This document shows positions 31,476-54,900 of a stretch of DNA of 64,000 bases, piece by piece; the first letter of the stretch is position 1; each line of letters begins with the position of its first letter. Location of the stretch: the NCBI GenBank assembly GCA_038363925.1, contig JAQQWL010000017.1, positions 160,602 to 224,601 of the forward strand, given 5' to 3'. The position numbers and the translations under genes are program-made. This stretch comes from Apiospora phragmitis. Its lineage: Eukaryota > Ascomycota > Sordariomycetes > Amphisphaeriales > Apiosporaceae. The notes under the pieces are model-generated. The model did not search any database, had not been told where the DNA came from, and saw only the letters and a list, made by a program, of their open reading frames with translations.

Positions 31476-31752
31476 ATGTTTAGATAATAGTAATATCATA
31501 GATAAATAATAATAAAATACAAAAAATTTCACTATATGCTGGAAACTTCTAATGCCTTTAGGTTCCGATTATCGGAGATAATCTTAAAGGATGAAACAAT
31601 GAACAATCAGCAGGAAACCAAAATAACCAGCCACGTTATGAGTAGGATCCTTAGAGACTACACGTGAAAAATCAATTAACACTGTTTTATAATAACAACT
31701 GAGTGATTAAGATATAGTCCACCATGGCAAGTCTATAAGATTTGCTGTGCTG
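30398..31752 (+). mobile_element. atp6 group I intron 1
   Basis: Splits the Val codon of GMVPYSF. ORF first, core after: P near 31533 (tatgctggaaact), Q near 31603 (caatcagcaggaaacc), R near 31648 (tccttagagactacacg), S near 31712 (aagatatagtcc). Terminal G 31752. Confidence 0.88.
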
Positions 31753-31904
31753 TCCATATAGTTTTGCTTCAACAAGCCACTTTGTATTAACTTTCTCTTT
31801 AAGTTTTACTATAGTTTTAGGTGCAACAATATTAGGATTCCAAAAACATGGTTTAGTATTCTTTTCTCTTTTAGTACCTGCAGGTTGTCCTTTAGCTCTA
31901 TTAC
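31753..31904 (+). CDS. atp6: atp6 exon 2
   Basis: Completes Val and reads PYSFASTSHFVLTFSLSFTI to FFSLLVPAGCPLALL plus one base. The 3' border is set by the GTGCG start of the group II intron at 31905. Confidence 0.93.
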
Positions 31905-34314
31905 GTGCGCCGGGCGAGGCGCTGTCGTTTCTTGTGATCCAGTCCGATCACTCGTGTATATATGACCACGGTTATTTTTGTGATACACGCCGCGGGTATT
32001 CACGTCTGTCTGGGCTAATAACCCTTTCGGAATGGGAAGCTGAATACAAACAGATACTATGATGTGGGCTGCCCCACAAAGAGGAGTGTCTGAGCGGGAG
32101 TAGTCATGTCGAGGCTAACAAACCTGATACTTATAAGTGCCTACTAGCTGCGGGAGATATCTTAAGCAGAATATATCGGTATCTTTACAACTTATCTAAT
32201 GGAATTGGTAATTGTTCCATTGGTAGTCATAGGGTTGTACGCTCCTTCCATACAGAAGACCTAAACGGGTATAAGCAGGCGGCTAAAACTACTTGGACAT
32301 TAAACGTAACTTCAGCGCAACCCCGGGATCTAACCGCCTCTATTTTTGATATGCGGAGACGGAGTTTCCATAGTAGCACAATTATATGTGCGAAGGGAAA
32401 CAGCATAACTTCTTCGAAAGTAGAAATTATAGATAGTAACCTTGTAAAACCGGCAATCAAGGTCAAACCCACTGAGGTGGCTAAGCGAGTCGGCGTTACT
32501 ACTATGATGAGAAAACTTTTGGAACAGAACAAGGTTGCTGGTCAGAAATATTACAAAATTATTAAAAACATTGCGGATCCGAACTTTCTTGTGGCCTGTT
32601 ATGATGAAATTAAGAGTAAACCCGGGAATATGACTCGAGGTATTGATGGAACCACTCTGGATGGAATAGATTACAAGTGATTTGAAAAAATGGCGATGGA
32701 TATCAGAAGTGGTAAGTTTAACTTCAAACCTAATCGTCGAGTAGAGATTCCTAAATCCAACGGGAAAACTCGGCCTCTTGGAATTGGATCTCCTAGAGAA
32801 AAAATTGTACAAAAGGCGCTTCACTCGGTATTGGAGGCGATATTTGAACCCCAATTCTTGGACACATCTCATGGTTTCAGACCTAACAGATCAACTCACA
32901 CCGCTCTTTTAAGAGCTTATTTAATTGGGAATAAGCATAACTGAGTTATCCAGGGTGACATTACCAAATGTTTCGACTCTATTCCTCACTCTATCATTTT
33001 GAAAAGGATAAGCGCTCAAATCGGAGACCCAGCTTTCCTTAGCTTAATTGGAAAGTTTATTAGTGCCGGGTACATTGATCCTACTACTGGAAAACTGGTG
33101 AACTCAGACACGGGGACACCCCAGGGGGTATCCTTAGTCCCTTGCTTAGTAATATTGTCCTGCAAGAGTTGGACAAGTATCTTGCTAAGTATAAAACTAG
33201 TTTCACCAAGGGGAGAAAGCGTAGGTGAAATCCAATGTACAAGAGCTTAATGGCAAAGAGAGGAAGAGCTACCTCTCCTGAAAGGAGATGGGAACTTCAG
33301 GGTCAGATGCGTACCATGAGAAGTACGGATATGTTCGATCCTGGCTTTAGAAGAATGGATTACATCAGATATGCTGACGACTTTGTCATTTTGGTAACTG
33401 GAAGTTTTAAAGATTCTAGATACATAAAGAACAACGTCAAGGACTTCCTTAAGGCAAATTGTGGAGTCGAACTTAATTCAGAAAATACCATCATATCGAA
33501 CATTGCAACGGAGAAATGGATGTTCTTAGGTGCAGAAATTTCAAAAATCAAGGCAAACAGCAGTTGACTGGTTAATCACGGTAAACGTAAAATGGTGGGG
33601 ACTCCAATGATCCAGGTGAATGCACCTAACTCTAAGTTAATTAAAACATTGAAAGATGCGGGGATAGTACGTATAAATCAGAATCAGAAAGTGATCCCCC
33701 AATGTCTTACAAGTATGGTGAACCTTAGCCACTACGAAATTGTGAGATTCTATAACTCCAAGATACATGGAACGTCAAATTATTACAGTTTTGCTTCAAA
33801 TCGAAATAATTTGCATTTCATAATCTGGCTGTTAAAAGCCTCTTGTGCCTTAACATTAGCTCGTAAGTTAAAACTTAGAACCATGAAGAAAGTTTTCAGC
33901 AGATTTGGTAGTGAACTTGAATGTCCTGACACTGGAGTTTCTCTTTACAAACCTGAACTGCATACAACTCATGAGTTCAAGAAAGGTGCTGTCGCAGACT
34001 TAGAAGAGAACATCAACACCGTTTGAAGTGGAAAACTAACGAAATCTAGTTTCGGATTGTCTTGTACTCTGTGTGGTTCAACTACTAATTTAGAGATGCA
34101 CCATTATAGATCAATAGCAAATGTCAGGGCTAAATATCGTAAGGGTGATAATGTTTCTTTCGCCCAACTTCAAGGTGCTCTTCAACGTAAACAAATACCC
34201 CTTTGTGAATACCATCACAAATTGTATCACAAAGGAGATTTGACTGCGTATGAACTAAAGAAAATTGCGAGTTATAGAGCGACTAGCTCACCTTGCCATC
34301 AAAAGAAGACTTAA
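31905..34314 (+). CDS. group II intron RT-maturase-HNH protein, fused to atp6 exon, one frameshift
   Basis: The frame is open from atp6 exon 2 through intron domains I-III (TGA = Trp at 32060) into the protein; the first ATG near the usual start is 32351. RT blocks: [50 protein letters not shown], then GTPQG. A five-G run at 33124-33128 lacks one G relative to the expected GTPQGGILSPL and shifts the frame, which resumes with RYADDF (catalytic Asp pair, about 33366), maturase domain X and a C-terminal HNH zinc-type domain (CTLCG...MHHYRS...CEYHHKLYH). Stop 34314. Otherwise complete. Confidence 0.85.
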
Positions 34315-34506
34315 TCCTCCCTTGATGGTAAAAGTGTATCGTTCACAAATGACTTTAATAAAAGTTTCAGCACGTACATTATTGTAATATTCTCTTTTAA
34401 AAACCAGTTATCGTGTCCTGGATACCAGTCGTTATGTGGCGAGCCGTATGATGGGAAACTATCACGTACGGTTCTGAGGGCAGTTCTTTAAAAGGCTGAC
34501 CCCTAC
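31905..34506 (+). mobile_element. atp6 group II intron with reverse transcriptase
   Basis: Starts GTGCGCCGGGCG (31905). Domain V is gagccgtatgatgggaaactatcacgtacggttc at 34440-34475, in two halves around the tetraloop. Domain VI and the 3' end (gacccctac) follow, ending at 34506, after which the split Pro codon is completed. GC content is higher than in the neighbouring introns. Confidence 0.9.
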
Positions 34507-40223: not shown

Positions 40224-40342
40224 TAGCCAGTATATCTTTATACTTGAAAGAAAATAGAACTAATCCCTTTAAAGGTGTGTATTTGTTTAAATTAGTATAA
40301 GTTTTCGGGGATTTATTTAACAAAAGGATGAATTTGTGGACG

Positions 40343-40550
40343 TTTATCAGGTCACATGTTATTAAACATATTAGCAGGTTTCACATACAATATAATGACA
40401 AGTGGTATAATATTCTTCTTTTTAGGATTAGTACCTTTATCTTTTATTATAGCTTTTTCGGGTTTGGAATTGGGAATAGCTTTTATACAAGCACAAGTTT
40501 TTGTAGTATTAAGTAGTGGTTATATAAAAGACGGTTTAGATTTACATTAA
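40343..40550 (+). CDS. atp6: atp6 exon 5
   Basis: Completes Ile and reads LSGHMLLNILAGFTYNIM, LGLELGIAFIQAQVFVVL-type helix (here FSGLELGIAFIQAQ), ending SGYIKDGLDLH and TAA 40550. The Glu and Gln of the last helix that line the proton path are present. Confidence 0.95.
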
Positions 40551-40795: not shown

Positions 40796-40890
40796 AGGTT
40801 ATGATGTAGTTGGTCTACATTTATATATGATTCATCATCTTATTAATCAATAGGGTGAAGAATTATGGGGTTCGATTCCTCCATAACCTT
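40796..40890 (+). tRNA. tRNA-like gene, identity uncertain (Met CAU is one reading)
   Basis: aggttat/ataacct acceptor, atgtag-ttggt-ctacat D arm and a ttcgatt T loop with a G-rich stem are clear. The middle does not fold cleanly: tatga-ttcatca-tctta gives a CAT anticodon with one mismatch, but leaves extra bases before it and a ~22-nt variable region. It may be an odd tRNA or a tRNA with an insertion. A partial copy of its 5' half appears near 43528-43572. Confidence 0.45.
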
Positions 40891-41325
40891 ATTAATATTT
40901 ATATAATTCTCTAGCTTCTTTTTATGCTGAGTTCCTTTACCTTGTAACACTGATCCCTTTTCCTTTTTATCACGTAGTGATATCAGGGGGAATGAGGCTT
41001 GGGGGATAAAGGGTAAAGGGAAAGAGATGGTATGAAAAGAATATTCTAAATAACTCCCTCGGCCTCCGGCCAAGTTTCAGCCACCTAAGGTGGCTATGTG
41101 TTTTTTCTTGCCCTCCTTTATCCGGAGGATACTGCAAGAAAAAACAAAGAAACTCTTTTTTTAGTTATATTACTTCATGCACTCTTATTTTTTTTATTGT
41201 TTGTATATTTAATACAATAATAAATTGTAATTTAATTACAAACAATAAAAAAATCTAGCTATAAAATAAATTAAATTAAAATTTAATTTATTTTATATTT
41301 AATTATACACGTGTATATATAAAGA
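40891..41325 (+). repeat. spacer with GC palindromes upstream of aminotransferase gene
   Basis: ccctttttatcacgtagtgatatcaggggg near 40960-40990, then ggcctccggccaagtttcagccacctaaggtggc near 41060-41095, then ttcttgccctcc...ggaggatactgcaagaa (41107-41144). 41160-41320 is very AT-rich with inverted repeats and could hold a promoter; none recognised. Confidence 0.55.
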
Positions 41326-42772
41326 ATGTTTATGTTAGTGCATACGATACAAGATCAGGAAGATAGTCGTAAACATAATAATAATGTAACTATTAAAAAT
41401 CTTAGCAGATTTCATAGTTCTTTTTCTCTAATGGGTCCTTTTAATGATAGTAGACCTTATGCAATTAAAGGTAGAGGTTGTTATATTATTACAAAAGATG
41501 GTCGTACTATTTTGGATGCGTCATCAGGTGCTATGGTATCTTCCATAGGTCATCGTAATAATAAAGTTATTGATGCGATAACTCGCCAAAACAAAACAGG
41601 TATAACTTACCTGTCTTCGGTTTGAAATAATCAAGTGGTCGAAAATTTATGTGAAGTTCTTATAAGAGGAACTAACTATCAAATGTTTAGAGTATATTTG
41701 CTTAATTATGGCTCTGAGTCAATAGAAGCTGCAATTAAGTTGGCTTATAGTTATCACAGTGAAAATAAAGAAAATAAGCGGATTAATATTGTGGCTAGGG
41801 TAGGTTCTTACCATGGAGCTACTTTAAATGCTTTGGCTCTATCAGGGTATTTTTCAAGAAAAATTTATTACAAATCTGTGTTAAAATTAGATAACATTCA
41901 CTACGTTTCCGCATGTTATCCATACCGTGAACTACTATTAGGTGAATCAGATGCTGCTTTCGTGGCTAGAAAGAAAGCAGAATTAGAAGCCAAATTTTTA
42001 GAGATAGGGGCTGATACAATTATGGCATTTATTCTTGAACCTGTGGTGGGGGGCAGCCTTAGGAGGTGTGCCTTCTGTACCTGGCTATTTAAAGGCTATG
42101 CAAGAAATTTGTGTTAAGTATGGTGTACTTTTAATTTTTGATGAAGTACTATGCGGTATGGGTAGAACGGGTACTTTGCATGCTTGACAATGGGATAATG
42201 TTATACCAGACATTCAGACCAATGGGAAGGGACTTGGAGGCGGATATGTTCCTATCTCCGCGGTCTTAGCCTCTGAAAAGGTTGTTAATGTTATATATAA
42301 AGGTAACGGAGAGTTTGTCCACGGACAAACATATGAAGGGATGCCATCCACTGTTGCAGGTGCCCTAGAAGTACAAAGAGTTATCCAGGATAAAAATTTA
42401 CTAGCTAATGTAACTAAACAAGGGGTATACCTGGAAAAACGTTTAAAAGCTGTTTTATCTGATCACCCTAATGTAGGAGAAATTAGAGGGCGTGGTCTTT
42501 TATGAGGCATAGAATTTGTAGAAGATAAAATAACAAAAATGCCTTTTAATCCTAACTTAGAAATAGCTAGAAGAATAGTGGATTTAGCTTTCTCACCTGA
42601 ATTTAACTTAGCTGTTTACTATGGGGGGTCTGCTGGTTATCTTTTTCATACAGATCGTATTATTATTGCTCCTCCATTTATCATCAAAAAGAAGGAGGTG
42701 GATTATATTGTGGAGGTGCTATCTAAAGTAATTAGTATAGTTTTTACTGAAGTTAGTACTAAAAGAATATAA
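41326..42772 (+). CDS. class III PLP-dependent aminotransferase, mitochondrially encoded (one frameshift)
   Basis: About 480 aa of the fold-type I class III (acetylornithine/4-aminobutyrate-like) family. ATG 41326. Blocks: [35 protein letters not shown] (cofactor phosphate region), [51 protein letters not shown] with the Schiff-base Lys, [30 protein letters not shown]. Two Trp codons are TGA, so the gene is written for mitochondrial translation. A six-G run near 42046-42052 has one base too many and shifts the frame. Substrate unknown. Such a gene is not part of the standard fungal mitochondrial set; nuclear origin followed by adaptation is inferred. Confidence 0.85.
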
Positions 42773-43239
42773 TGTAATAGTATAGAAAACATGTATATCT
42801 TGACCTTTAGGTTAAGATATGTAGTTTGTAACTATATTATTAAGAATTTTTCTTATTGCCCTCATATCCTTTTATCACGTAGCGATATCAAGGATAAAGG
42901 GCACGAATAAATTTAATAAGAGGTATTTCAGCAGTAATAAGTGTAATCTTAAGAATTAAATTTTATTTATATTACTTGATATCACGCTATATAAAACCCT
43001 TCTTCTTTTAAGAAGAGGGATCCTTTTCGGTCTCTCCTCCCATATAATCTCTTCGAGTTAAAGGGAGGGGGGAATATAGAAGAAAACCGGAGAAGATCTT
43101 AGATAAAGCCGGGGGCCGGGGGTTTACATCAAAAATATTTTTCGGTGTCCGCTTTAATTTTTATTTTTATTAAGGCTAGTAGACATAATTTTAATTATGT
43201 TTGTGTATGTCATTCACGATAAGGAATATAGGCCCAAGT
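42773..43239 (+). repeat. spacer with GC palindromes
   Basis: ccttttatcacgtagcgatatcaaggataaagg near 42867-42899, tctctcctcccatataatctcttcgag...aagggagggg near 43032-43072, gccgggggccgggggtt near 43109. No gene seen. Confidence 0.55.
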
Positions 43240-43515
43240 AAGAAAAATATAACATTAAGATCATCTATAAGTATGTGATACGAGAGATGATTCTTATCAA
43301 CAAATGCTAAAGATATAGGAACATTATATTTAATGTTTGCGCTATTTTCAGGGTTATTAGGTACAGCATTTTCTGTACTTATTAGAATGGAACTAAGTGG
43401 TCCAGGTGTTCAGTATATTGCAGATAATCAATTATATAATAGTATCATAACAGCTCATGCTATATTAATGATATTCTTTGTTGTGCAAGCATTAATCGGT
43501 GGAGGGGTAAAATAA
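43240..43515 (+). pseudogene. cox1: truncated cox1 5' copy
   Basis: The frame reads [76 protein letters not shown] then TAA at 43515. This is the N-terminal ~85 residues of COX1 (TGA = Trp). The normal sequence continues MPALIGGFGNF; here one residue is lost and the frame ends. The functional cox1 exons at 1-21462 are far away, so this is best read as a partial duplicate. Confidence 0.82.
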
Positions 43516-43718
43516 AAATACAAAAAAAAAAGGTTTAATCTAGTTGGTTTACATTTATCTTATATCACTTATCTAGCCCTCCCCCCAGATATCTGGGGGG
43601 GGTAAGAGTATAAAGATCGTCAGTAAAATAAAATATCGCGGATATCCCAGATCCCCTTATCACGTAGTGATATGAGGGGAAGAGGGCTAAAGCGATAAAG
43701 GCACAAAAAAATAGTACT
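43516..43718 (+). repeat. spacer with palindromes and a tRNA 5'-half copy
   Basis: 43528-43572 resembles the first half of the tRNA-like gene at 40796 (aggtttaatctagttggtttacattta). Then cctccccccagatatctgggggggg near 43578-43604 and ccccttatcacgtagtgatatgagggg near 43653-43680. Confidence 0.5.
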
Positions 43719-43980
43719 TCCCTGTGCCGAAGGCAAAAGATTTTGAAGATAAAAATAAACTAAATTTAAAAGAATTTAAGGAAGCTATAGTAAACAATAT
43801 GTCTATATATATAATTACTTCAAGTAAAAGGTTTAGATTTTAAATAGAAAATAGAATGAATAAATTAATTAAATGATAATATTATCCTTTAATGTATAAT
43901 TTAAAAGCGAGCATTGCAAAGCCTAGATAAAACTATAATTTAGAGAGATATATTTAGCAAGAAATAACTTTATTTTACAA
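43719..43980 (+). repeat. ~260-bp direct repeat, copy 1
   Basis: From ccctgtgccgaaggcaaaa to agcaagaaataactttatttta. About 90 percent identical by eye to 47072-47330, with small indels. The second copy lies directly upstream of rns. The pair brackets the nuclear-like segment. Confidence 0.85.
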
Positions 43981-44184
43981 AAAAAAAAATTACCAAACTA
44001 AATTAATATTAACTTAAAACTAAACTCTGGATTTTTAATCCCTTAATAAACTAAATAATGCATTCTGTAGCCGGAGGCTCATGAAAGAAAAAAAAATTAA
44101 TAAGCATAAGTTTATTTCAGACTTAGTAAAGAAAGTAGTTTAATTTGGTTTTATATTGAAAGAGTGTACGGCTAATAATATCCC

Positions 44185-44275
44185 ATAGATGTACCACTTT
44201 TTTTCGACAACAAGATCCAATACATGTACCACTTTTTCTCGACCCTATACATGTACCACCCTTTCTCGACAACAA
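44185..44275 (+). repeat. triple short repeat at the end of the aminotransferase fragment
   Basis: Three copies of a unit like atgtaccactttttctcgac(aacaag) at about 44189, 44223 and 44252. The third abuts the aminotransferase fragment, whose last residues (RERVVHV on the minus strand) are coded by it. It marks the truncation point. Confidence 0.75.
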
Positions 44276-44754
44276 GCTCCAAGGGTATTGCCGTGATATG
44301 AATTCTTCCGGGCAATGAAGTTGACACGGGGAGTTTTCGGGTCTTGTTCGTAGAAGTATTGACGAGACAGCTTTATAGCTGCCTCCATTGCCTCAGAACC
44401 TGACCCTGTCAAGTAGACTCTACCCATTTGGTTATTAGTACCTTGGATGAGCTCCTTGGACAAGTCTTCGACGACATCGTTGGCCCAAAATGAGGATGCC
44501 AGGTAGGGGGTTCCGGATTTTAACTGTTTATGTATTGCTTCGATGACTCTTTGGTTGGCTACGCCAAGACAGGAGACAGCAGCTCCTGAACATGCGTCAA
44601 ACACCTCGCGACCATCCTTTGTAGTAAGGTAATTGCCCTTACCGCTCAGGATCTGAGGGTACACCTTGCGAAGATCACGGAGAAAGGTGTACTCCGAAGA
44701 AGTTTGAGCGATTCCAGGCCAAGAGGTCATAGTGAAGAATGATGGGGGTGACAA
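44276..44754 (-). pseudogene. 5' fragment of a nuclear-type class III aminotransferase
   Basis: On the minus strand from an ATG near 44730 (MTSWPGIAQTSSEYTFL) the frame reads GKGNYLTTKDGREVFDACSG, WANDVVEDLSKELIQGTNNQ, MGRVYLTGSGSEAMEAAIKL and ARKNSYHGNTLG, then stops matching at the triple repeat. About 155 residues; the PLP lysine half is missing. Trp is TGG, codons use G and C freely. It is a homologue of the complete gene at 41326 (same SEAxEAAIKL, SYHG order) but not a recent copy. Upstream DNA (44755 on) may be its nuclear 5' flank. Confidence 0.8.
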
Positions 44755-47071
44755 GAAATATGTCTGTTGAAGGTCGTGACCAAGAAAATAGTCAAAGAGT
44801 TGGCTTAGGGTATACTTTGATGAGAATCAAAGTATACATAGGTTATGATTGATGGTGAGGTAATTGATTGTGACAGTGAGGGGTGCCGGCACGAGATTGG
44901 TGGTGTCGTGTTAGATTGTGATAGTGTGGAGGTTGAGGTTGGTGGTGGTGGTGGTGTATTTGATAGATTGTGATAGTGTAGGGGGGTTTAGATTGATGAA
45001 GATGAGTTTAGGATAAAAAATGAAAACAGAATGTAAGGGGGGGAGGTGACTATTTTTATATTGATAGATATTTCGGCTTTAGGTGCCGCCTGCTCCAGAT
45101 CCCCGAAGGGGAAGAGGAGGGGTAAAATTCATTTTTTATTTCTAAGCATTTGATTTCTAATCGTATGATTTCTAATCGTATGATTTCTAAGCCAAAGTGG
45201 CGGGGTGTGCTAGTTTTATTCAAAACTTGTTTTTGAATCAAACAGGTTTGATTCTTCAAACTAGGATGGTGAGCAAGGAGATATTTTAATTGGATGATAC
45301 CAAGGATAAGGAATCTAGGCGTAGATCATAGATAAGGAAAACAAGTTTTCCTTGGATCTAGATTCATGATCAGCCCACTAGTTATGTCTAGATGATCTGT
45401 TTATTACATCATAGATAAGGAAAACCTGTTTTTATTAGGTTCTAGCCTATCCATAATCTCTTCGAGATAAGGAAGGGAAGGGTCGGCTGGCCGGTATCTC
45501 TGATATCACTACGTGATAAAGAGATAAAAGTCGGCCTAAAGCCAGCCGGAGGCTAGATGATTCCATCATCAGCCCACATGACTCAATGACTCATGCCACG
45601 GTGGCAATCGAGATGCATTGCCTTGGCATGCATCTCGTTTCCGAGGGGGGGGGGGGTTAACAGGGATCTTAAACTATCTATTGGACAATGTCAATCACAA
45701 GATCAAAAGGATTACGAATTCTTCGAGAAGTATGATAAAAAAATATTAATTTAATTGGTCAAATCTTGAGATTGTGTGATCCAGACTAAAGGTGGCGTGT
45801 TCATCTCAGCATGTGATCTTGTATTATTCAAGGATCTTCATGATGATGTGACGTAATCTGGTGAGGCACAAACTTGTTTTAAAGTGGGGATCTTAATCAA
45901 GTGACTCGTCGATCGTGGGGGTTTACGGTTGAAGGGTCGGAGAAGATAAGAAGATTGTATGTGATTGGTGAATAGATACAGGGACTTAGTGTCCAACTAC
46001 GTAATATCGTACGATGTGGCCTCGTATCTGCTAGCCGCGGGGCGGTCCGCTAGTTTTGTCCCACAAACTAAACTGATGATTAGCCCTACATGTGGAGGTG
46101 ATCCGTCTTAGTTATTGGTCAAAATATCATCTCGTGTTGATTGCATTGTGGGGGTACATGTCGATTAGATAACTTGATTACGGAGTAGTGGCGAAACTTA
46201 CGTATTAAGATTGTGTAATCTAAAATTGGAGTCTGTCTCTATCAGAAGCTGATGATGTATAGTTAAAAAAGTTTCTTTAAAGGAGACACCTTTTCACTTT
46301 TGTTCTTTTATTTCTTCCCAGAAAAAGATCAGATCGATTCAGCCTAAACATTATCACATTACATCTGTATCTGTTCTATATTTTGTTCCATAATGGAATA
46401 TTTTTTGCCTTCTTTTCATTATTCAGGCAGCCATAATTGTTCTGTGCCCTCAAGTAAACAACTTCACAATGTCAACACCTCAAGATTTGATTTTTAGGGT
46501 ACTCTTCCCCCTTCAAGCCCTCAAAGTCCCTCTTTGAATTTACAGCACGGTCTGACTGTTTCAGAATCAACTCTTAATACAGGTTCGAACCTGTATCATA
46601 CAGATACTTCGTCGTGTTCTCTCGGAACCAAATTGAAGAGTAAGTAACATGGTTATATTTTTTAAGGTTTTACTGATCTTTAGTAGGAAAGGCTTCTGTT
46701 GACTCTGAAAGTCTAAGACTTTCAGAGCCCAAACGCCGATGTGTTTTGTCTCCTTCTGGCTTCGACCATCAATTGTTGGAATCGAAAAACAATATAAGCA
46801 AGATGAAACCTAGAATACTTCAAATCTATATTGAGCATCAGGTCGAGCGTTACATAAAGACCTTGGTCAAAGATTGTGCATTTGTGACCACTTCTTTGAG
46901 TATGAAGTCTTGGAAAGAATCTGAGGAATGGGATTTGGAGGAGGAGGAAGACAAGGAAGAGTTTATTCTGGAATCGAAGTTTGATCTTAAGTCTGTTATT
47001 CGTTTTACATAGTTGCATAATTTAGTCCTTCTGCTGATATAAATCTAAGATTTATAAAGCAGCCCAGCACA

Positions 47072-47330
47072 TCCCTGTGCCGAAGGCAAAATATTTTGGA
47101 GATAAAAATAAACTAAATTTAAAAGAATTTAAGGAAAGTTATAGTAAACAATATGTCTGTATATATAATTACTTCAAGTAAAAGGTTTAGGTCTTTAATA
47201 GAAAATAGAATAAATTAATTAAATGTTAATGTTATCATTTAATGTATAATTTAAAAGCTAGCTTTGCAAAGCCTACATAAAACTATAATTTAGAGAGATA
47301 TATTTAGCAAGAAATAGCTTGATTTTATCC
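47072..47330 (+). repeat. ~260-bp direct repeat, copy 2
   Basis: Partner of 43719-43980. It leads into the rns 5' flank and is probably the original copy, with the other generated at insertion or by recombination. Confidence 0.85.
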
Positions 47331-47399
47331 CAAAATAAAAAAGAAGATCTTATTTTTCTTGATTCATACGTAGAGTCTAGTGTGAATATCAAAACAACC

Positions 47400-47475: not shown

Positions 47476-47858
47476 TATATATGGGTGAGTTTGGTGATGG
47501 CTCTGATTGAACGCTGTCGAAATGCTTGACACATGCTAATCGAACGTTTAATTTAATAAAGCGTAAGCTTCTATTTTATTAAAAGTGGTGTACAGGTGAG
47601 TATAGACCCCAAGCCGACCTTAAAGAGGGGGAAAAATCCCCCATAATCCCCTCCCCGGCCTTGCCGGGGAGGGGGGGAGAGGGTAATTATGCCGCTTTAA
47701 GAGGACATAGGGTGGTCGCCGAGATAGGTTGTTGTTAAGGTTACTGCTTAACAAGCCTAAATTCTCGTAGTCGAAGCTGAAAAGTTGATCGACCACATTG
47801 GGGACGAAAAAATCCCAAGGCAAGCGAGTACAGCAGTGAGGAATCTTGGTCAATGGCC
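47475..47858 (+). rRNA. rns: small subunit rRNA, exon 1
   Basis: gagtttggtgatggctctgattgaacg (5' domain start), cacatgctaatcgaacg, gtggtgtacaggtgagtata, cagtgaggaatcttggtcaatgg. These match the bacterial 16S 5' domain order. A GC-rich hairpin (tccccggccttgccgggga near 47650) has expanded one helix. The 5' end is approximate. The exon ends at caatggcc before GTGCG at 47859. Confidence 0.88.
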
Positions 47859-50800
47859 GTGCGCTGTCTAATAATTTATATGGTTGTTCTCCTAACAAAA
47901 GAACCAGATTGTTTCAAATATCTGTAAAGCATCATACTTATCCTCGGATTAAAGGTTGTCCACCTAGTCCTTGTAAATCTAGTAATAGAGAGGGGAGTGT
48001 AGCATGTATGAAAAGCGGGTAAGCAGGACTCTAAGGAAGATAGAGCTGACGAAACGACAACTTGACCGCAAGCTAAGAGTCTCATGGTATTAAGAATAGG
48101 ATGTGGGGTTAGAGGACCACTATTACGGATATCATATACATTCATCGTATATCTTCTCACACGCCGTATACTACTACAATTTTTCATCGGGCCACGGAAA
48201 AATTGATGAAACTAGTAGTACCCCAACTCGAAGAAAGAGATAAAGCATCACAATACCTAAAAGATTCATGGCCGTATAAATTAGAATTCAGGATCTCTTA
48301 GAGATTGCACTAACAAGATCATCAATGATAGTGATAACATGGTAATTAGCTTAAATGAACCTATTCAGTAACTGAGTAGAAGGTCGTACCTCTTAAATGA
48401 GCAGACAATAAAATAAATCACAGACATAGATCTCTTGTTAGTGAGCAATCAATTAATGTTAAGTCGCCCTAAGAATATCTAAATCTGATTATTCATCTTA
48501 CAAACCATAATCTCTCTCTAAGTCTCAACAAGGGCAACGATGCAATCATCATGCTCCGGAACACTAGAAAGGGGAGAACATTGGCTTAGAGTTGAGTCTA
48601 AGTCCAGGAGAAAGGTTAGCAGCCTACCCTCCTGTAAAAATATGGTAAGCTGAGTAAGGTGCAGATAGCCAAAAATAATTAATAAAATAACGCTCAACAA
48701 ATAACTAACGTAAATACAAATAACTCAACACACTCTCTGGAATGCATTAATGTCCCCCATACAAATATTGAAAAACTGAACAAAGTTAACCCGGAATCAA
48801 AAGACATCTGACATATCATAAAAAATAAGTTAAAGTTTAATGAAGAAGGGAAATGTTGTAACGCCTTTGAAGTACTATGTAGCGGAGACGTCTTACTAAT
48901 GGCATACAACTCTATAAAGAGTAAACCAGGAAATATGACCAAAGGAATAGATTCAATCACACTGGATGGTCTGGATAAAAATTGATTCATCAAAGCTCAA
49001 AAAGATCTTCTGAATGAATCATGACAACCAAAACCAGCCAGAAGAGTTTATATCCCGAAAGCTAACGGTAAGAAAAGACCTCTTGGAATTAGCAGCCCTA
49101 GGGACAAAATAGTACAGCAAGCAATGAGGCTAGCGCTTGAAGCAGTCCTTGAACCTCTGTTCTTGGACACGTCTCATGGCTTTAGACCAAAACGTGGATG
49201 TCACACCGCCCTTAGAGAAGTTAGAGAGTGAAGAGGAGTAAGCTGATTCATAGAAGGTGACATAAAAGGTTTTTTCGACAATATAGACCACTATATTTTG
49301 GAGAACCTATTAAAAGAACACTTCGCTGAAGCCAGACTTATCAACCTCTATTGAAAGTTTGTTAAAGCTGGATATGTCGAGTTTGACCTAAAGAAAAAGG
49401 AATATGTATCCACAGATAAAGGGGTACCCCAAGGAGGAATTATTAGTCCACTTCTTTCTAACTTGATACTACATAAACTTGACGAATACGTTGAGGGTAT
49501 AGTAAAAAGATATGAAGATGAGAACAAAGTAAAGAAACCTTATAGTAAAAACAAAGCGTATCACAGTTTAGAGATGAGAATAATCAGATTAAAAAAAAAG
49601 ATAACCATTCTCCAAAACAATGGAGAAGATTTTACTAAAGAAAGAAAGGAATACAGAAAGAAAATGAAACTAAAAAGAAGACTGAAATCACTAACTCCCA
49701 ACCCAGATTACACCAAAGTCAGATATGTCAGATATGCTGATGACTGACTAATTGGTGTCTGAGGAAACAAGAAAACGGTGGTTGATCTTAAGTCAAGAAT
49801 AAAGAGTAAACTAGACGAATGAAAGTTAGAACTTTCAATAGAGAAAACCTTAATAACAAATGCAAGATCCGGAAGAGCCAAATTTCTGGGTACCGTTATT
49901 AAGAGGATCGCATCTAATAAAAGTACTTGATATACTAAGACTAAAGACAACAAGAAAAGAAGAATTCCAACCGGTGGAATATGAATGACTGCCCCTATTC
50001 TGGAACTTATTAAGAAATTGGAAGAAAAAGGATTTGTGAAAGTAATGAACAATAAGTGAAAACCCAAAAGTATAACTAAATTTACTTTACTACCAATTAC
50101 TGATATCATTATGAGATATAATTCAATAATTAATGGTATTTCTAACTACTACAGCTTTGCTGATAATCGGAGAAGACTAAACAAAATAATTTGAATTATA
50201 AAGGGAAGTCTCTCAACAACACTTAGAGCAAAATTAAAAATCAGTCAAAAAGTGTTCGATCAAAGATTTGGAGAAGACATAGTAGTCAAAGTAACTGGAA
50301 AAAGGTCAGAACCTAAATATGTTAAGTTTACTCAACCTAACCTTGAAAGAAACCCTATGGTTTTTTTAGGGGAGCAAAATTCAACGATCCGATAAATCCC
50401 ATTATATGAAAAATTTCAACTATTAACCCTCTAGGACTAGTATGCTCTAACTGTGGATTTACATCTAATATTGAGATGCATCATATCAGACATGTAAAAA
50501 CTGTCAATTTGAAATTAAATCCTTTTGAGCAAATGATGGCCAGAATTAATAGAAAACAAGTACCATTATGTAGAACTTGTCACAACCAAGTGCATAAAGG
50601 AGAATATAATGGAGTATCACTAAAGAACTACCAAAAAATTTTCAAAAAAATAATATAGATATTCAAAAACGACGAAAGCATTGAGAAAAAACAATAAATA
50701 AAACTAAGAAGTCGGAGGCCTCATACTAGTAATTATAGGGAATAATTATGAAGGGGGCTAGCTTGATCAAACCGAGATAAACCACCTGAAGCATGGGACA

Positions 50801-50981
50801 ACTGTCCAGCTATCTTTATTTGGTCACTTTCTCAAAACAAAAGCTATAGTATTAGTAATAATGCTAGGTGTCTAATGGACATCCATGCCTATTCATGTAG
50901 CGATCAGGGTGAGAGCCGTATGCTTTGAAAGGAGCACGTACGGTTCGGAAGGGGGTTCACTATACTGGGTTCCTACCTTAC
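47859..50981 (+). mobile_element. rns group II intron 1 with RT
   Basis: Starts GTGCGCTGTC at 47859. Domain V is gagccgtatgctttgaaag + gagcacgtacggttcgg at 50912-50948; domain VI follows and the intron ends ctaccttac at 50981. rRNA resumes with taacggctgaactggcaact, which fits helix 16-17 after caatggcc. 47870-48680 holds domain I-III sequence and no plus-strand gene. Confidence 0.87.
48687..50658 (+). CDS. group II intron RT-maturase-HNH protein (one frameshift)
   Basis: Open from about 48687 (TGA = Trp), start codon unclear. RT blocks: [95 protein letters not shown] (catalytic Asp pair, near 49732). Maturase domain X and [10 protein letters not shown] follow. A run of seven T at 50361-50367 shifts the frame; the HNH part is in the next frame (CSNCGF...MHHIRHV...[12 protein letters not shown]) to 50658. 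One indel would restore a full protein of about 655 aa. Confidence 0.82.
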
Positions 50982-51901
50982 TAACGGCTGAACTGGCAAC
51001 TTCGGAGAACGGAGAAGATTTACTGATATGCAAGTATGTTCTTACTCTAAATCGGTTTGTCGAATAAAGTTCTAACTGCATATTGATTATGACGATATGC
51101 ATATTTATGCCTTGACTAATTACGTGCCAGCAGTCGCGGTAATACGTAAGAGGCTAGTGTTATTCATCTTAAATAGGTTTAAAGGGTACGTAGACGGTAG
51201 TAAATGTCCTAACCGGATACATCTCTACTAGAGTTTTATGTGAGGAGAGTCGTACTTATGGTGTAGAGATAAAATTTGTTGATACTATAGGGACTGGTAA
51301 AGGCGAAGGCAACCTCTTATGTAAAAACTGACGTTCAGGGACGAAGGCACAGAGAACGAACAGGATTAGGTACCCAAGTAGTCTTTGCAGAGAATGATGA
51401 ATGCCATAAATTAGGTAATATTACTTGGTTTATAAATGAAAGTGTAAGCATTTCACCTCAAGAGTAGTGTGGCAACGCAGGAACTGAAATCACTAGACCG
51501 TTTCTGACCCCAGCAGTGAAGTATGTTATTTAATTCGATGATCCACGAAAAACCTTACCACAATTTGAATGTTATTAAAGTTATTTAAGGTTTTAATTTT
51601 AATAATACAAGTGTTGCACGGCTGTTTTCAGTTAATGTTATGAAACTGCGGTTCCGACCGTGTAATTAACGGATACCCCGGCTTTATTTACAATTAATAG
51701 AGCATTTCTTGCCCCCTACAATGGTAAGAATAAAAGGGAATAAGACAAGTCATCATGGCCTTAATATTGTGGGCTATAGACGTGCCACATATTCCTACAC
51801 AAAGAGAAGCAAAAATGCGAGTTTAAGCTAATCTCAAAAAATAGGATAGAATTCGGAAATGGATTGCAGTCTGAAATTCGGCTGCATGAATAAGAAATTG
51901 C
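50982..51901 (+). rRNA. rns: small subunit rRNA, exon 2
   Basis: Contains the 530 loop gtgccagcagtcgcggtaatac (51124), gattaggtaccc-like aggattaggtaccc (51360), acgcaggaactgaaatcac, gttgcacggctg, gacaagtcatcatggcc and gcagtctgaaattcggctgcatgaa. Continuous bacterial-type central and 3' major domain sequence. Ends caatt-like aaattgc at 51901. Confidence 0.92.
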
Positions 51902-54900
51902 GTGCGACGTGCAAAGCAGTACATTCTAATACGGTGAAATTCCGTCTTCTTAGAGAGCAAAGATGATCCTACCTTCACGTGCTGGACATAAGTTAGAAAT
52001 AATGAAACGAAAGTATGAAGCTGAAGGGACAAAAGTAACCGGACTTAAGTGTCAGCCTAGAGTGACGGCTCTACGCGGTGCCAGGATGAAGTGTTCTATG
52101 GTAATCGAAAGAAAAACATTCGATGAGGCCTCGTAATTATTCGTTAAGGGTGTAAGATGAATATATGTCCGTGATTTACATATATTAACTCTCCAATTCC
52201 CAGAGAAAAGAAAACTCGAGGGATATCTTACCGGGGTAAAGAAGTTACCTAAGGAACAAGTTAATGTGGAATGTACTGAACACGGTAACCCCCAAATCTG
52301 CCAAGTCGTCAGATAATCTAAGTTCCCAACAAGAGATGAATTGTTTTATTTTTATCTCAAGGAGTAAAAGACAATAACGAACGGAAGCAATGTATAAAGA
52401 ATAAAATCGGAAATCGTTGTACAGGGTGTGGGGAAGACGATGTTTCAAAAAGCTAATGTAATGCTGTAATGGCATTAATAGGATCTGTTGAAGTTTATCA
52501 GTTGAAAGTTCGTAAGAAAAGAGGAAGTTAGTTAACAGGCCCACACAAAACAATCAGTTAAAAGTCAAGGATCGCTCACGGTCATGACGTGTAAAACTTT
52601 CTCTGGGCTTACACCCCAGTTTAAATTTAGAATAGGACCAAGACGGATTGGGGCAGTGGGTACCTCTCCCCTAGAAGGAATGTCGAACCATTCTGTAGTA
52701 AATCGAGAGAGAAATATGATCCAGAGGAGAACTATATAATAAATGTAAAGAACTTTGTGCCAATTGCAAGTGTCAGCAATCAAATGCAAAACCAACCAGG
52801 TGTATTATAATTTAACAGAAGCTTGAAGATTTGATGTCCTAACAAGCCTAAAAGCGATAGGTCCTCAGGGGATAAAAGGCCCTCTGTAGGGAGCACAGTA
52901 CAAAGAACCGAAACAGGAATAATAAAGTAAACTTTGAAGAGTTACTTCAAACAAACAATTACTATAAATAAACTTCTAGTAACTAACACGAACTTAAATC
53001 AATCAAAAACGTAACACAATTTTTAAATATCAATTACACAAATAATAAAGAAAATGAAATCGGAATAGAAAAAGTGAACCAACAAACAACCGAAGCTCAA
53101 AAATGGCATGCCATAAACTGAAAAGAAGTCTATAAAAAGGTGGAAGAAAAGCAGAACGATATAGCAATAGCTATGTCGAAAGGTAATCTGAAATCCGTAT
53201 ATCAAATACAAAGATCCTTAATTGAAAGTTTTAATGCCAGAGCCATAGCTGTGAGAAAAGTTATAACTAATTCAGGTGGGAAAACTCCGGGAATCGATAA
53301 CGTAGTCCTAAATACACCGGAACAATATTATCAAATGATAAAAGAGATCCGCGAAATCATTCAGAACTTAAATGAATATAAATCTAAACCCCTCAGAAGA
53401 GTACTAATACCTAAGGCTAATGGAGACACTAGACCTTTAGGGATACCCACTATAAGAGATAGAATTATACAAGCGTTATATCACCTGGCTGTAGATCCCG
53501 CAGTAGAAGCTAGATCAGACAGATTCTCTTTCGGATTCCGAAAGAAAAGATCAACCCATGATGCAATATCCTACTTCCGTCATTATATGGACAAAACTGT
53601 AGCGCCCAAATTAGTGTTGGAAGCAGACATATCCAAATGTTTTGACAAAATCGATCACGGATTCCTTATGAAAAACACCCCAATTTGCGACAAAAGCGCA
53701 CTGCACCAATGACTTAAATCAGGAGTTATAGAACAAGGAAAATATAAACAAACCTATGAGGGAACACCTCAGGGAGGTATAATCTCACCTACTCTTTGCA
53801 ATATAGCACTGAACGGGTTAGAAGAGACAATCAAAAGTCAATTCAAAGATCCAAGTAAAAAGACAAGTGCAAAAATACAGGTAATAAGATACGCAGACGA
53901 CGTAGTCATAACAGGAAAAACTGAAGAAATATTGATAAGATGCAAACATATAATGGAGAACTTCATTAAAGAAAGAGGATTGCAGTTGAATCAAATGAAA
54001 ACCAAAATATCTAACATTGAGGACGGAATAGACTTACTAGGATTTAATATATCAAGAAAATTATGGAAAGCTGAATTGAATAGAAAAAGTAAACAGAAGG
54101 ATATACTAATTATCAAACCCACAACAAAAGCTATCACGAGTATCAAAGGAAAGATTGCGGATGCATTCAAGAGACAAAACACCATGGACACAATAATAAT
54201 GGAACTTAATCCTATCCTTAGAGGATGAATAGAACATAAAAGAATATCGTGACACTCCTTCGAGGCCTTTAAGGAATTGAATAAATATATCTGAGAACAA
54301 ATCAGAACAAAATTCGTTAAAGATAAACCAGGAAGAAGCAGTCAAAGACGAAATTACAAAGAAATAAAAGGAAATAACGGATGAACAGGTAAAAGCGGAA
54401 AAGTCCTATTAGATCCTATCAAAATAAACACGATAAAATACGGGATCATGAAAACTGATCTTAACCCTTATCTACTAGAACACAGAGAGTACTTCGATAA
54501 AAAGAAAGAATCCAGAGTGCTAAGTGCGATAAGAACAAAACTATTCAAGAAGTACCACAACACATGTGAGGTGTGTCAACAATCCTTACTAGGAATAGAG
54601 AAAGTAGAAATACATCACATCAAACCTAAAGAGGAAGGAGGATCAGACCATATCAGAAATCTGAAACCCCTACACCGAACATGTCATATTAAAGTAACCC
54701 ATGATAAAAGCAAAAATTGATAAACAGAAATTAGATCTAACTCGAAAGAGTGCAGACTTGAAACTGGTGAGAACTGACGAAATTGGCAAGTAAAAACTTA
54801 ACGAAGCTAAGACAGCTGGTACTTCAAATAAAAGACTAGTAGTATGGCTAAAACCACGTAGTAGCGACGTATACTCACAAGGTCCATAATATCGATAAGA

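Follow-up and report, generated by a model that had tools for sequence, protein, structure and literature searches.

How does a class III aminotransferase gene come to lie in the mitochondrial DNA (mtDNA) of Apiospora phragmitis, and is it still a working gene? Such a metabolic gene is normally nuclear-encoded, and gene flow is generally taken to go mainly from mitochondrion to nucleus. The stretch that we analyzed (the window, 64,000 nucleotides) is C19:160602-224601, where C19 is the 224,601-bp mtDNA contig in a genome of 52.67 Mb and 19 contigs. C19 carries rns and tRNAs including tRNA-Trp(UCA) and tRNA-Arg(ACG); nad3, nad4L, nad5, atp6, and atp9 were located by tblastn, and cox1, nad1, and nad4 were recognized by eye in the ORF list. 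There are four aminotransferase loci in this mtDNA, copies 1 to 3 and a short remnant (Table 1), and copy 1 raises the question.

Table 1. Features of the copy 1 region and the other aminotransferase loci (window coordinates unless C19 is given).
Feature	Position	Strand	Basis
Copy 1: class III aminotransferase of 480 codons (code 4) with a single frameshift	41326-42772	+	ORFs, profile search
G6 run holding the one-base frameshift	42048-42053	+	sequence
Duplicated cox1 5' region (upstream sequence, start codon, leader), aligning as two pieces of 96% each	40866-41366	+	self-comparison; source C19:150043-150328 and 150454-150672
N-terminal leader common to copy 1 and functional cox1	41326-41391	+	sequence comparison
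ATG, likely native aminotransferase start; P0005 begins here	41431-41433	+	alignment
Second cox1, truncated; its leader has diverged, and 73 residues of exon 1 match functional cox1 exactly before a stop	43195-43515	+	ORFs, self-comparison
atp6 3' exon, upstream neighbor; relative P0001 starts with a similar piece	40341-40538	+	tblastn
Start of rns, downstream neighbor	47487-47937	+	rns match
Last exon of functional cox1; C-terminus PPKPHAFVSLPLQS resembles a segment close to the N-terminal end of P0001, P0002, and P0084	21166-21462	+	by eye, tblastn
Copy 2, intact aminotransferase, 449 aa, without TGA, upstream of nad4L	C19:106677-108026		ORFs, tblastn
Copy 3, aminotransferase 5' fragment, GC3 0.51, 92% to P0061	44272-44697	-	sequence match
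34-residue aminotransferase remnant	C19:104726-104827		best E 0.001
Left direct repeat bounding the GC-rich stretch with copy 3	43713-43989	+	self-comparison
Right direct repeat, 91%	47066-47342	+	self-comparison

Read in code 4, copy 1 consists of two overlapping ORFs (41326-42117 and 42035-42772), 241 codons followed by 239 codons plus stop, which join at GGGG within the G6 run. Both pieces match one and the same class III aminotransferase and cover positions 11-213 and 210-440 of the NCBIfam model PRK07483, in agreement with the initial annotation of a class III enzyme of about 480 residues. Both exceeded the Pfam Aminotran_3 cut-off of 30.5 in the profile search of the organism's own genome (C19:202068-202652, 104.2 bits; C19:202663-203334, 161.1 bits). 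The nearest protein among the matches listed is P0001. The homology is far beyond chance, because the match is nearly end to end, P0001 has 80% identity over 94% of the query, and TAA and TAG are absent from the two pieces up to the frameshift and the end, respectively. The expected DEVxxGxGRTG and KGLGGGY motifs are both present, the latter as GKGLGGGY. By sequence, copy 1 also retains the Schiff-base Lys, the Asp of DEV, the Y-H-G stack, and the phosphate G-S and T, residues whose roles we assume to be the catalytic ones that these names imply.

Among the 25 NCBIfam models shown, PRK07483 (aspartate aminotransferase family) was the best for copy 1. Its curated cut-off of 485 was exceeded by copy 2 (P0121, 515.0) and by P0122 of A. 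kogelbergensis (523.1); P0001 fell slightly below it (474.3), and copy 1 could be scored only as two pieces (187.7 and 262.8). Acetylornithine, ornithine, and 4-aminobutyrate types had been proposed for comparison. The acetylornithine/ornithine models (argD, PRK01278, PRK03244, and TIGR01885) scored far under PRK07483 and below their own cut-offs, and no GABA-named model was among the 25 shown, yet the best PDB sequence match of P0001, to which it was aligned, is 5kr6, named 4-aminobutyrate transaminase. Judged by family, copy 1 would be a PRK07483-type enzyme, transferring amino groups between amino acids and keto acids.

Copy 1 is written in the mitochondrial code. Trp is encoded by three TGA and one TGG codons (the initial annotation had counted two TGA), and the site lies between atp6 and rns, which bears out the earlier view that this is a mitochondrial gene and no recent insertion. 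The description as AT-rich fits GC3, at 0.22 near the 0.11-0.18 of the five resident stretches measured (two homing-endonuclease-type ORFs gave 0.18-0.19), but overall GC is 35%, above the 26-28% of those five stretches. A contaminant, an assembly chimera, or an mtDNA copy in the nucleus might be suspected from the GC-rich copies 2 and 3 (GC3 0.42 and 0.51). We hold such an origin to be highly improbable, given the TGA codons and the position of copy 1, the atp6 piece at the start of its relative P0001, and the NCBI names of P0122 and of P0121, which has the same sequence as copy 2 ('hypothetical protein PG994_015199 (mitochondrion) [Apiospora phragmitis]'), both of which include '(mitochondrion)'.

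The surroundings of copy 1 point to cox1. Two cox1 duplicates (40866-41366 and 43195-43515) flank the gene, and in the downstream one the leader and exon 1 align at 43195-43479 with 93% identity. The first ~22 residues of copy 1 follow the sequence upstream of and into cox1 (...NNNVT in copy 1, ...QNNIT in cox1). Functional cox1 may start either there or at the later ATG of MSSISMW, in which case this leader would be 5' UTR in cox1. P0005 begins at Met36 of copy 1, apparently the native start of the aminotransferase. From its position between the cox1 duplicates and its cox1-like leader, copy 1 therefore probably borrows the cox1 5' flank.

As assembled, copy 1 is not one continuous reading frame, and the frameshift cuts the half with the PLP-lysine off from the N-terminal half. 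A single lesion in a G run had been described; there is indeed only one, and the run is the G6 of Table 1, not 42046-42052. The frameshift could be an assembly error in a homopolymer, leaving copy 1 an intact and expressed mitochondrial gene. It is the sole lesion seen in 1447 bases, the second G6 run of copy 1 (42623-42628) keeps the frame open, and the substitutions look constrained, as described below. True slippage is also plausible because the mtDNA holds 65 G/C runs of 6 or more, and we rate the error as possible but rather unlikely. Since copy 1 carries one frameshift, it is most likely a gene that broke recently; copy 2, which is intact but not the same, sits at another place in this mtDNA.

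Whether copy 1 was under selection before it broke can be judged from its substitutions. In columns where P0001 and P0002 agree, copy 1 has changed at 30 of 321, and conservation is lower at the changed columns than at the others (P=0.0052). Adding P0003 as a stricter test weakens the effect (18 of 272, P=0.023). The own branch of P0001 showed no such effect in the same tests (24/315, P=0.32; 19/273, P=0.22). Copy 1 was probably constrained until recently, as its changes favor variable columns. It could instead be a long-dead pseudogene that is passively carried. Besides the frameshift itself, this reading can draw on the near-invariant columns, 9 of 86 of which are broken in copy 1, including a Y in place of the near-invariant S ahead of G-S-E. 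That count equals the 9 of 87 in P0001, an unbroken ORF, and exceeds the 0-7 of the other 12 of the 14 rows scored. Against long death stand the concentration of changes at variable columns and the clean frame: the copy 1 branch has about 67 residue changes (0.15 over 448 columns) with zero further stops or frameshifts, where our estimate without selection is about 3 stops (3.0-3.6% stops per mutation). We regard a long-dead pseudogene as quite improbable.

The other loci differ from copy 1 in how far they resemble resident DNA. GC3 is 0.59-0.65 in three nuclear paralogues measured, 0.51 in copy 3, 0.42 in copy 2, and 0.22 in copy 1, and the series across the three copies suggests that they arrived in the mtDNA at different times. 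Copy 3 lies antisense to copy 1, 1.5 kb away, within a GC-rich stretch of ~3.1 kb between 277-bp direct repeats (91%; the whole spans 43713-47342) that also contains 35-nt tandem repeats. A DNA match over the genome for a nuclear source of this insert found, outside C19, only two small C9 pieces. These form a small inverted pair of nuclear fragments (G000:C9:3218442-3218702) with 88-90% identity to copy 3, and would be either what is left of a nuclear parent or the product of a return transfer from the mtDNA.

Several further observations were made on this mtDNA. The tRNA-Arg(ACG) gene is duplicated (C19:104617-104689 and 106116-106188), and the remnant and copy 2 each lie directly downstream of one of the two. 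Copies 1, 2, and 3 contain 9, 15, and 6 CGN codons, and the five resident stretches measured contain 0 or 1. An A9 run near the stop of copy 2 was not counted as a poly(A) tail, because runs at least that long turn up 0.37 times per kb. The rns gene is split (47487-51975), with a reverse-transcriptase-like ORF recognized by eye (48899-50395) and a group II intron match (50911-50981) between its parts. More reverse-transcriptase-like ORFs, also found by eye, lie at 31742-34314 and 53074-54723 and adjoin group II intron matches at 34439 and 55164.

Joining of the aminotransferase to respiratory genes recurs in relatives. The first protein search gave five proteins with both Aminotran_3 and a respiratory domain among the 120 matches listed, and at least 12 (nad3 in nine, nad5 in two, and nad4L in one) are in the best 120 of 7871 matches, query included. 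Most of the fusion proteins are predictions from contigs and are known here at the protein level. The N-terminus of P0001 is an atp6-like piece with 63% identity to C19:200942-201139 (E 1e-20; Pfam ATP-synt_A E 0.11, below the cut-off); next comes a short piece of the cox1 C-terminus (PPKPHAFVS), which matches weakly (E 0.009). P0002 and P0084 begin with atp9 and then a cox1 C-terminal piece, and the atp9 piece is also in P0169. A stray 14-residue cox1 C-terminal piece directly follows atp9 in A. phragmitis itself (C19:82481-82522). We infer that the aminotransferase cassette once stood behind cox1 and has since moved. Two deposited nad3 records, Dematophora necatrix P0089 (590 aa) and Nemania diffusa P0165 (892 aa), carry the aminotransferase domain. 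Like copy 1 they have the aminotransferase in frame behind a respiratory gene, and they belong to the same 26-row group in the 78-row tree below, but their host gene is nad3, not cox1. The D. necatrix paper (PMC11404375) does not use the word 'aminotransferase' anywhere in its main text. At C19:78512-79973, nad3 of A. phragmitis runs in frame into ~230 unrelated residues, after which the 3' part of nad3 appears a second time, an architecture of the same kind as the nad3-aminotransferase fusions elsewhere.

We compared three trees, all built from non-bacterial rows. The 144-row tree comprised 136 of 163 proteins and 8 rows of our own, after P0121 and 26 proteins with an aminotransferase part below 380 aa were dropped. 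A careful 51-row tree used 45 hand-chosen proteins of the 163 and 6 own rows, leaving out nucC17b and nucC2out, and a quick 78-row tree added 22 new proteins and 5 fragments to those 51 rows. Rows were labeled mitochondrial or nuclear from record names, respiratory-gene fusion, or named contigs mostly over 450 kb. P0012 of Juglanconis oblonga ('putative aminotransferase'), which we take to be mitochondrially encoded, is a homologue but lies outside the clade of copy 1. P0172 is probably the Annulohypoxylon stygium mtDNA gene as far as it is described in PMC6140425, hence its mitochondrial label. Supported closest relatives differ for each copy in the 51-row tree: P0001 for copy 1 (100/99), P0122 for copy 2 (100/98), and P0061 for copy 3 (99/92). 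Copy 1 and P0001 sit inside starred sets without any nuclear-labeled row. In the 78-row tree, copy 1 and P0172 share a group of 26 rows (SH-aLRT 88, not starred), of which 10 are labeled mitochondrial, 16 are unlabeled, and none is labeled nuclear.

These trees bear on whether the three copies descend from a single entry into the mtDNA and diverged there afterwards. With an outgroup of 9 rows, all nuclear, the fewest label changes in the 51-row tree are 3, of which only 2 are forced by starred branches (4 and 2 in the 78-row tree). A single clade of copies 1-3 against the 19 labeled nuclear rows was not rejected (p-AU 0.122), nor was one of copies 1-2 (0.278), whereas one clade for all 12 labeled mitochondrial rows was rejected (p-AU 0.0025), these groups having been named after the tree was seen. 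The different closest relatives of the copies and the GC3 values, which suggest different ages, also argue against a single entry, which we consider doubtful.

An old transfer from either nucleus or bacterium had been suggested, and of the two we favor a fungal nuclear gene over a bacterium as the direct source, because the named nuclear matches are fungal and are closer than the bacterial plasmid matches (five listed, 40-48%). A tblastn search of PLSDB with P0002 gave 1908 plasmid records, none reaching 60% identity, and the organisms shown are bacteria. Viral contigs scanned with copy 1 and P0122 gave 2 and 3 pattern matches, which encode no relative. All five nuclear paralogues inspected (C4, C13, two on C17, and one on C2; class III matches on C11 and at C2:2478983 were outside this survey) have an intron inside the same Gly codon of G-S-E. 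Both splice signals were displayed for the C2, C13, and one C17 gene, and the donor only for the C4 and the other C17 gene. Apparently the same intron is present, unspliced, in P0020, P0031, and P0073. As copies 1, 2, and 3 are without it, entry of a nuclear gene into the mtDNA by an RNA route fits but is unproven.

Taken together, we think it probable that copy 1 belongs to a lineage of fungal class III aminotransferases, of nuclear origin and long resident in mitochondria, and that it captured a cox1 flank and was recently broken. The lineage would have entered the mtDNA from a nuclear gene, perhaps via an intron-free copy, and may have moved within the mtDNA by recombination. The cassette would then have landed in frame behind pieces of resident genes, where it is found in several relatives; in A. 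phragmitis this could explain why copy 1 follows a duplicate of the cox1 5' flank and a cox1 leader of ~22 residues. Flank and leader may supply transcription and cox1-type translation initiation, and the product would be a soluble matrix aminotransferase. Statistical evidence suggests that selection is still visible in the copy 1 substitutions made after the split from P0001, the nearest known relative, and one frameshift would then have broken the gene.

Mitochondrial aminotransferases are already reported in A. stygium and Pestalotiopsis fici. In A. stygium mtDNA, a class III aminotransferase-like gene lies between atp9 and cox2, and the atp6-rns interval holds an AAT_I fragment (Deng et al., 2018; PMC6140425), so copy 1 is not the first such case. 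The case resembles ours in the family, in the mtDNA location, in the fragment occupying the same atp6-rns interval as copy 1, and in the placement of P0172 in the same 26-row group. It differs in that the available text describes two short introns and mentions no cox1 fusion (PMC6140425), whereas copy 1 is fused to the cox1 leader and frameshifted. P. fici, as in A. phragmitis, has a reported mtDNA aminotransferase, there a standalone gene (named in PMC11277600), and aminotransferase-encoding mitochondrial introns are mentioned elsewhere (PMC7902536, on a mitogenome; PMC8393795, a review). As far as open-licence full-text searches show, the cox1-leader capture, several lineages in one mtDNA, and the fusions with respiratory genes are new; no paper describing in-frame fusions of aminotransferase and respiratory genes was found in those texts.

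Arg8 is acetylornithine aminotransferase, a class III enzyme. In the ARG8m system of S. cerevisiae, this nuclear gene is recoded to the mitochondrial code and replaces the COX1, COX2, COB, or VAR1 reading frames (PMC9943650). Copy 1 offers a natural parallel to this reporter, although ARG8m is engineered and, by NCBIfam scores, of a different class III subfamily. A wider and more speculative reading, which we think unlikely, is that the mtDNA of Sordariomycetes and relatives is a recurrent home of one metabolic gene: nuclear aminotransferase mRNA/cDNA would have entered several times, a mobile cassette would capture respiratory-gene 5' ends or C-termini, and the result would be a working matrix enzyme, a natural ARG8m. 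For sequence records, at least two deposited 'nad3' proteins are actually nad3-aminotransferase fusions. One metabolic gene family is found repeatedly in mtDNA, variably adapted within a single genome and joined in frame to respiratory genes in relatives, and these repeated, variably adapted copies therefore make nucleus-to-mitochondrion transfer datable and testable.
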